Part shown: in pieces, positions 16,232 to 54,317 of the stretch | Numbering within the stretch: the first letter of the stretch is position 1 | How the letters are laid out: each line of letters opens with the position of its first letter | NCBI GenBank assembly: GCA_947450545.1 | Contig: CANFVU010000001.1 | Coordinates: forward strand, 62,001-126,000 | Direction of reading: 5' to 3' | From: Actinomycetota bacterium | GTDB lineage: Bacteria; Actinomycetota; Actinomycetes; Nanopelagicales; Nanopelagicaceae | DNA: 64,000 nucleotides | Made by a program: the position numbers and the translations under genes | The notes under the pieces: generated by a model | What the model was told of the DNA's origin: nothing | The model's input: only the letters and a program-made list of their open reading frames with translations | Databases searched by the model: none

Positions 16232-17440
16232 TTATGCCCCTCGGGCGATTTCTGCCACTCCCGCGATAAGGCGCTCAACGTCTTCGAAAGTTGTGTACGG
16301 CGCTAACCCAGCGCGCACCGCTCCAAAATCCTCAAGCCCTAATTGGCGAGAAGCTTCCAAAGCATAGAAATTGCTTCCAGGTGCATTTACTTTCTTTGCT
16401 GCCAACTTCTTGTACACCTCTGCTGCTTCGATTGACCCTACAGAGAAGAAGATTGTCGGGGTTCGATCTTTCGCATCTCCATAAGTTTTAACACCAGAAA
16501 TCGCTTGTAACCCTGCTTCCATACGAGCGAACAGTTGGTGCTCGTACTCTTCAAGAGAGCTCATCGATTGGATGATGCGTTCGCGCCTCGAGGACTGAGG
16601 ATTGGAGTCAAGATCTGCCGTGTAATTAATTGCAGCGGTGGCTCCCGCCATAATTTCATAAGGCAAAGTTCCAAATTCAAATCTCTCCGGCACAACCATG
16701 GTGGATGGCAAGAGCTTGTCATTGTTGAGAGTTTCTAGGAAAGCGGGATCAGCAACCATTGCACCGCAATGTGGTCCCATCATTTTGTAAGACGAGAACC
16801 CAAAGAGATCAGCTCCAATATCTTTCACATCAATAACTGCGTGTGGAGTGAGATGTACGCCGTCCACACCAAAGAGTGCTCCGGCTGAATGAACCGCTTT
16901 ACCAATGGCTTTCAAATCAAGTTTAGTGCCCAAAAGATTTGAGGCACCAGTGACAGAAACAAATTTAGTTTTCGATGTCAGAAGTTTTTCGATGGTCGCG
17001 ACAGGAAGTTCACCCGTTTCAGTATCGAACTTTGCCCAGACCACATTGACGCCTCGAGCTTGAGCAGCTTGAATCCATGGGCGGACATTTGAATCATGAT
17101 CAAGAGTGGTGACGATGATTTCATCACCAGCGTTCCATGTCTTAGCAATAGTGCGTGAAAAATCGTAGACAAGTTGTGTCCATGATCGTCCATAAACAAC
17201 TCCGCCAGCCTTCCCACCGGTTAAATCAGCGACAGCAGATCGAAACTCACCAACAATTGCATCTGCATTTTTCTCAGATTCTGTGGTGACGCCGCGGTTG
17301 GAGAGTGGAGCAGTAATAGCAGCAGAAATTGCATCGCCTACTTGATGAGGGGTTTGCGTTCCACCAGGACCATCGAAGAAAGCCAGACCGGAATTTAGCG
17401 AAGGAAAGTCTTTGCGAACGCGCTCAACGTTGTATGCCAT
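16232..17440 (-). CDS. Class V aminotransferase, cysteine desulfurase-like
   Basis: A PLP enzyme of fold type I, 402 residues. The PLP lysine is K219 in SSYKMMGPH, with cofactor-binding H115 (DHDSN), D193 and the GASNLLGT stretch. The C-terminal segment that normally carries the catalytic cysteine of cysteine desulfurases reads GAVRAGLAPYTT, with no cysteine, so it may not be a desulfurase. It resembles the SufS-like 'cysteine desulfurase-like' subfamily of uncertain substrate. A longer frame runs back through the tRNA gene and cannot be real; the ATG at 17440 has a leaderless -10 box. Confidence 0.88.
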   Translation of the reverse strand: MAYNVERVRKDFPSLNSGLAFFDGPGGTQTPHQVGDAISAAITAPLSNRGVTTESEKNADAIVGEFRSAVADLTGGKAGGVVYGRSWTQLVYDFSRTIAKTWNAGDEIIVTTLDHDSNVRPWIQAAQARGVNVVWAKFDTETGELPVATIEKLLTSKTKFVSVTGASNLLGTKLDLKAIGKAVHSAGALFGVDGVHLTPHAVIDVKDIGADLFGFSSYKMMGPHCGAMVADPAFLETLNNDKLLPSTMVVPERFEFGTLPYEIMAGATAAINYTADLDSNPQSSRRERIIQSMSSLEEYEHQLFARMEAGLQAISGVKTYGDAKDRTPTIFFSVGSIEAAEVYKKLAAKKVNAPGSNFYALEASRQLGLEDFGAVRAGLAPYTTFEDVERLIAGVAEIARGA

Positions 17441-17446
17441 TTCGTT

Positions 17447-17452
17447 AGCATA
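17447..17452 (-). promoter_or_regulatory. -10 box of leaderless aminotransferase promoter
   Basis: TATGCT with a six-base spacer (AACGAA) before the ATG at 17440. It lies one base beyond the CCA end of the tRNA-Leu gene, so any -35 contact must fall inside the tRNA gene. Confidence 0.65.
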
Positions 17453-17453
17453 A

Positions 17454-17529
17454 TGGTGCCCCCGGTCGGACTCGAACCGACACTGGAAGGATTTTAAGTC
17501 CTCTGTCTCTGCCATTGGACTACGGGGGC
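17454..17529 (-). tRNA. tRNA-Leu (anticodon UAA), short variable arm
   Basis: A 76-base cloverleaf including an encoded CCA. The acceptor stem is GCCCCCG/CGGGGGC with discriminator A. The anticodon stem is GAGGA/TCCTT around the loop CTTAAAA, giving anticodon UAA, which reads UUA leucine codons. The T arm GTCGG-TTCGAGT-CCGAC is canonical. The variable region is only five bases (CCAGT), so this is a class I shape, whereas bacterial leucine tRNAs normally have a long variable arm. The D stem is weak, with three pairs. It lies between udg and the aminotransferase. Confidence 0.9.
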
Positions 17530-17574
17530 GCATGGCAATTTGGGAAGTCTACTAGGTGATTTCTGTAGTTCTTT

Positions 17575-32928: not shown

Positions 32929-33003
32929 TGGCTCCGCCACCAGGTATCGATCCTGGACCCTGGGCTTCAAAGGCCCATGTGCTAGCCACTACACAATGGC
33001 GGA
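32929..33003 (-). tRNA. tRNA-Gln (anticodon UUG)
   Basis: A 75-base cloverleaf including an encoded CCA. The acceptor stem TCCGCCA/TGGCGGA is perfect, the D stem is GTGT/GCAC, and the anticodon stem TGGGC/GCCCA surrounds CTTTGAA with anticodon UUG. The T stem is CCAGG/CCTGG; its loop reads ATCGATA, so position 54 is A instead of the nearly universal T. It lies between ispE and glmU, as in other actinobacteria. Confidence 0.93.
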
Positions 33004-54226: not shown

Positions 54227-54317
54227 TCGTGAGCCCACTCGCGTCAGCGCTGACTTGAGAATTAGTTCCCTCCAACGGATCGTCGGGCACGTACCTGCCC
54301 GGAGAAGGAGCCTTGAA

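Follow-up and report, generated by a model that had tools for sequence, protein, structure and literature searches.

Leucine identity in Escherichia coli lies in A73, the A15-U48 pair, G18G19 and A20a, the long arm not being needed, and an E. coli tRNALeu deprived of both the anticodon arm and the long arm is still active (passages on leucine in PMC9976931). The same passages of PMC9976931 describe the human mitochondrial tRNALeu(UUR), which, like the tRNA analysed here, reads UUR codons without a long arm and has A73 and A14 as determinants, but which is organellar, has a weak anticodon arm and is charged by the mitochondrial LeuRS. In actinobacteria, a short-loop tRNALeu(TAG) is reported from a Mycobacterium tRNA cluster (passage on the cluster in PMC6582537), and in M. 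tuberculosis it is tRNALeu-2, -3 and -5 in particular that have a long variable loop, comparable to that of tRNASer (PMC11541572, 2024). By implication the other tRNALeu of M. tuberculosis would be short-looped, as is the one described below, although in the passages concerned of PMC11541572 the subject is the MenT3 toxin and short tRNALeu as such is no topic. In the open-access literature searched, no paper was found that treats short leucine tRNAs as a trait of actinobacteria or of the whole phylum, and a repeated, isoacceptor-wise switching coupled to the 12:23 pair was not found in print either. The bldA tRNALeu(UAA) of Streptomyces, which shares anticodon and phylum with the present tRNA, is in contrast a class II tRNA with a long arm; the long UAA sequences of the family f19 genomes included in our survey were taken to be of this bldA kind.

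The window, that is, the whole stretch of 64,000 nucleotides that was analysed, carries the following features.

17454 to 17529, minus strand: tRNA-Leu(UAA) of class I form (ARAGORN, Rfam and base numbering).
17492 to 17498, minus strand: anticodon loop CUUAAAA (positions 32-38) with anticodon UAA (sequence and numbering).
17482 to 17486, minus strand: variable loop CCAGU (positions 44-48), its U48 predicted from the bases to pair with A15.
16232 to 17440, minus strand: putative protein gene directly downstream of the tRNA, cysteine desulfurase/aminotransferase-like by eye, with a presumed start.
54258 to 54316, plus strand: msiK RNA (RF01747), a cis-regulatory RNA family (57.1 bits, cut-off 33).

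ARAGORN called a tRNA-Leu(taa) with ends at exactly 17454 and 17529 on the minus strand, and Rfam model RF00005 matched from 17457 to 17529, with the CCA outside the match (60.1 bits against a cut-off of 29, E = 1.7e-10). The acceptor stem has seven pairs out of seven and is followed by A73 and a CCA encoded in the gene, the T arm is GTCGG-TTCGAGT-CCGAC, and the D stem consists of three pairs (G10-C25, U11-A24 and C12-G23), with C13.A22 unpaired. The variable region is five bases long, whereas class II tRNAs have at least 10. Allo-tRNAs are defined by an 8/4 or 9/3 cloverleaf with non-standard acceptor and T-stem lengths, from which the present tRNA departs with seven acceptor and five T-stem pairs; it has instead all the features of the actinobacterial short tRNALeu (variable loop of up to 6 nt, C12-G23, C13.A22, A15-U48 and A73). 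The original prediction had named the UAA anticodon, the discriminator A and the five-base variable region, each of which was confirmed by ARAGORN and base numbering. It had also called the D stem weak, and three pairs with an unpaired C13.A22 agree with that description; the weakness is not decay, however, but part of the leucine pattern of this genome, because all four of the leucine tRNAs found in it, class II included, have it.

The likely ATG of the downstream gene lies 13 bases past the CCA of the tRNA, if its start is correctly placed, and a longer open reading frame (16232-17533) enters the tRNA only mechanically. Once the tRNA has been processed, the message of this gene may have a very short leader (window positions 17438-17454). 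Inspection by eye of the 12 other family loci did not show such an arrangement. Conserved synteny with the downstream gene was considered and rejected, as the 60 bases past the tRNA differ by eye among the 13 family loci, the present one included.

The source assembly (1.31 Mb, 41 contigs, 88% complete) gave 38 Rfam tRNA matches, 37 of them above the cut-off, and ARAGORN runs on these loci yielded 36 distinct sequences. Four were leucine tRNAs: the short UAA, a short CAA (loop ACAGU), a GAG with a 15-base arm and a UAG with a 13-base arm. No CAG leucine tRNA gene was present among the tRNA matches of this 88% complete assembly. A class II UAA duplicate elsewhere in the genome, whose presence the original prediction had suggested checking along with the other leucine tRNAs, was likewise not found among the 38 matches, although at that completeness such a gene may lie outside the assembled part; the listing brought up the CAA tRNA as a second short form. 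By their anticodons, the UUR leucine codons would be served by short tRNAs and the CUN codons by class II tRNAs of the same genome.

All 36 distinct tRNAs were numbered for a comparison of identity elements. The combination of A73, A15-U48, (C/U)AGA after G18G19 and an unpaired 13:22 was found in the four leucine tRNAs (4/4) and in none of the others (0/32). The short UAA tRNA has A73, A15, U48 and A20a, with G18G19 followed by CAGA. The nearest non-leucine tRNA was Arg(acg), in which A73 and A15-U48 are present, but whose D stem has four pairs and whose G18G19 is followed by ATAG. An unpaired 13:22 also has a role in leucine identity.

Our reading, to which we give a probability of about 0.93, is that 17454-17529 encodes a functional leucine tRNA for UUA (and UUG by wobble), predicted to be charged by the ordinary LeuRS and inherited as an actinobacterial trait. 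It rests on the fold, the identity bases, the alignment of UUA and UUG with leucine, the conservation and the spread, all of which can be read in the sequence. Because the leucine identity set is kept without the long arm, the ordinary LeuRS of the cell would charge this tRNA with leucine, and the two short tRNAs, UAA and CAA, would between them cover the UUR leucine codons, with CUN left to the class II tRNAs. We infer that UUA is what it decodes in the cell, and that the arm was lost, not gained.

The original prediction had supposed that a short form would need atypical recognition by LeuRS, which is not borne out, as the leucine set is present and the E. coli enzyme needs no long arm. A LeuRS specially adapted in this lineage to arm-less tRNALeu is a possibility that we consider unlikely, even though UUR and CUN tRNAs of different arm length must share one enzyme. 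The LeuRS gene is split over two contig ends, the two pieces matching residues 1-113 and 102-859 of the 860 of E. coli LeuS and carrying the same 15 residues where the ends meet, so that the enzyme matches its E. coli counterpart almost end to end; in addition, the genome itself has leucine tRNAs of both arm lengths and switching is frequent among its relatives, which speaks against a dedicated adaptation. Judged by this alignment the C-terminal domain of the LeuRS is present, and a missing or shortened LeuRS was ruled out by the near end-to-end match.

Leucine codons numbered 1747 in the 46 open reading frames of the window (overlapping frames kept in), of which 440 were UUA (178) or UUG (262), UUA making up about 10%; the short tRNAs therefore do ordinary work. 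For a codon test, the window proteins were compared with ten chromosome stretches of E. coli K-12, and 12 of 23 open reading frames aligned with nine of the stretches (E < 1e-20), the tenth, with leuS, being used for the LeuRS comparison. Leucine was the commonest E. coli residue opposite UUA (21/57, 37%) and UUG (47/92, 51%), and stood opposite 51% of CUN codons (191/371), whereas it was found opposite 13-18% of AUU, AUC, GUU, UUC and UUU codons in the same alignments. Valine came second opposite UUA (10/57, a small sample). The lower leucine share of UUA may reflect sampling plus the less conserved sites of AT-rich codons, but it does weigh against the leucine reading.

These counts also bear on the idea that the gene is a tRNA of another isotype turned UAA by anticodon mutation, with a different amino acid inserted at UUA, which we regard as very improbable. 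Most other isotypes normally have a class I outline, a human short tRNA-Leu-CAA resembling tRNA-Met is mentioned by the tRNAscan-SE 2.0 authors (passage in PMC8450103), and leucine stands opposite UUA less often than opposite CUN. Leucine is nevertheless still the commonest residue opposite both UUA and UUG, the UAA and CAA tRNAs have the same form, and the D arm, A15-U48 and A73 jointly match the class II leucine tRNAs of the genome and no other isotype found in it. An anticodon mutant of another isotype was accordingly rejected on the D arm, the 15-48 pair, the discriminator and the codon alignment.

The reading of 17454-17529 as an inherited leucine tRNA was compared with its distribution in relatives. 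A blastn search with the UAA tRNA against 41 genomes, the present one (G000) plus 40 relatives, gave matches in 35, and the 29 further loci read from relatives were all short leucine tRNAs (24 UAA and 5 CAA). The comparison with related genomes that had been proposed with the original prediction revealed the short UAA tRNA in 20 of the 24 other genomes of the genus, the remaining four (63-94% complete) showing only short CAA. Among these 20 UAA tRNAs the acceptor stem was fully paired (7/7) in 17 and had one mismatch in three (L043-L045), with compensating changes within the genus (GCCCCCG/CGGGGGC, GCCCCCA/TGGGGGC and GCCCCGA/TCGGGGC). In 10 other genomes of the family (99-100% complete), every UAA match that is a tRNA was short, and eight further matches to the UAA pattern were not leucine tRNAs according to ARAGORN.

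The survey of the class covered 148 genomes with a pattern whose fixed positions are confined to part of the anticodon loop and the T arm, each row being classed by reading. Among the 120 genomes with a match, the UAA arm was short (up to 6 bases) in 73, intermediate (7-9) in six and long (13 or more) in 41; the other 28 had no match to the UAA pattern. In nine of the 120 (G000, another five from its family, G093, G111 and G129), additional matches unlike UAA tRNAs were left out, and ARAGORN found no leucine tRNA in those stretches. Outside the class, 109 genomes, likewise classed by reading, comprised 20 with short and 77 with long UAA tRNAs, seven without a match and five with only matches unlike UAA tRNAs, two of which, checked in part, contained tRNA-Sec (G278) and tRNA-Ser (G226). 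Seventeen non-UAA-looking matches were checked by ARAGORN: three were tRNA-Sec (f56), one was tRNA-Ser (G226), one in G115 lay at a Gly/Cys tRNA pair, twelve gave no tRNA and none was a leucine tRNA.

A scan of named genomes, whose pattern required the AGAG letters of the D arm and a short loop and hence gives no frequency, detected at least 117 short-form loci. Among the matches listed, 116/117 were tRNA-Leu(UAA) by ARAGORN (the exception being L155) and 98/117 were placed in Actinomycetota, with Mycobacterium, Nocardia, Rhodococcus, Gordonia, Corynebacterium, Bifidobacterium, Microbacterium and Nocardioides among the genera. The short tRNALeu(UAA) of other Actinomycetota resemble the present one in length, A73, the leucine-type D arm (CCAA..GG.AGAG in nearly all) and a variable loop of 5-6 bases, often ending in CAGT, a likeness partly selected by the pattern, and differ from it in their stem sequences. 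On the genomes compared, the short UAA tRNA is a lineage trait of Actinobacteria and not an oddity of one genome, a possibility that the original prediction had tentatively raised; 73 of the 120 class genomes have it. As grounds for refutation the original prediction had named a long list of identical short leucine tRNAs already annotated in relatives, and the list obtained is indeed long, though drawn from genome collections that carry no annotation.

Dense tRNA clusters, with 10-34 tRNAs in 1.5-8 kb, were met at eight loci (L137, L150, L154, L160, L170, L188, L209 and L214) from Cyanobacteriota, Chloroflexota, Planctomycetota, Bacteroidota and one Actinomycetes MAG, and hold short CAA, UAG, CAG and GAG leucine tRNAs besides UAA.

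That the present gene is a pseudogene, or belongs to a mobile, anti-defence type of tRNA array outside general translation, is the least probable of the explanations weighed. Short leucine tRNAs do occur in the dense clusters of other bacteria and in the Mycobacterium cluster (PMC6582537, same passage), but the window has just two tRNA genes 15 kb apart (the other, by ARAGORN, being a tRNA-Gln at 32929-33003), the gene is the sole UAA gene found in a genome with UUA at about a tenth of the counted leucine codons, and the covariation of acceptor stems between relatives, with one mismatch in 3/20, together with conservation, led us to reject a pseudogene.

Short and long UAA tRNAs were found within the same families, both in the class (f14, f28 and f39) and outside it (f40, f47, f48 and f49). 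CAA was uncoupled from UAA among the matches listed, G052 having a long UAA and a short CAA tRNA and G117 a short UAA and a long CAA. The UAG tRNA was long in most genomes read, including G164 of f14 (both among the matches listed), and short in at least nine genomes of f14, f23 and f35 (L304-L307 and L334-L338; loop CCAGU; 9/9 by ARAGORN); judged by these tRNA genes, some actinobacteria have the short form in an isoacceptor for CUN as well. In G027, a 30-base UAG-type match (L308) was not called as a tRNA by ARAGORN. In f49 the arm seems to have changed in place, since the long and the short UAA tRNAs have most of the T arm in common as well as the acceptor stem (GGGGGCG/CGCCCCU). A tree of Mfd from 30 genomes, of which 27 carried a label (8 short and 19 long), required a minimum of seven changes of arm length; 11 of its 27 inner branches were weakly supported, whereas the splits in f47 and f48 were starred.

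The coupling of arm and core was evaluated on 85 distinct leucine tRNAs from searches blind to the D arm, and the count over all 223 distinct sequences was set aside because the named-genome pattern fixes AGAG (positions 20a-23). C12-G23 was present in 62/62 sequences with loops of up to 9 bases and in 0/23 with loops of 13 or more (22 G-C and one A-U); the 85 derive from 88 loci, 58 of them hand-picked and many from mixed long/short families, so that 62 versus 23 is no frequency, and, the tRNAs being related to one another, it is sequences that are counted, not independent events. In the same 85, base 9 was A in 55/62 short or intermediate forms and G in 22/23 long ones. All six intermediate tRNALeu(UAA) with loops of 7-9 bases (L085-L089 and L260, from f9 and f26) had C12-G23, and five short UAG tRNAs outside the 85 followed the same rule of arm and core. 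The short UAA tRNA L229, with the same anticodon loop CUUAAAA, stood outside the 85, because ARAGORN assigned it to Phe(aaa). Class I and class II tRNAs differ in the core triple made up of position 9 and the 12:23 pair, and for this reason we read the coupling as a refitting of the core when the arm goes.

It is likely, in our estimate, that leucine tRNAs of the Actinomycetota have changed class, from I to II or the reverse, on many occasions, isoacceptor by isoacceptor (UAA and CAA, with UAG as a third in some families), each time with a flip of 12:23 between G-C and C-G and usually of base 9 between G and A. For the gene itself the result means little, as it is ordinary within its lineage, and the wider interest is in how the phylum has lost (or gained) the arm repeatedly, in step with the core. 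In annotation work, the UUR leucine tRNAs of many actinobacteria, Mycobacterium and Corynebacterium included, could be misjudged by isotype models or filters that take a long arm for granted in every bacterial tRNALeu. The phylum also offers many natural long/short pairs of one isoacceptor, those of f49 sharing the acceptor stem as well, and these allow the role of the arm for LeuRS and against SerRS to be asked without engineered mutants. If the switching is true, arm length would be a freely evolving trait of bacterial tRNALeu and no class marker.
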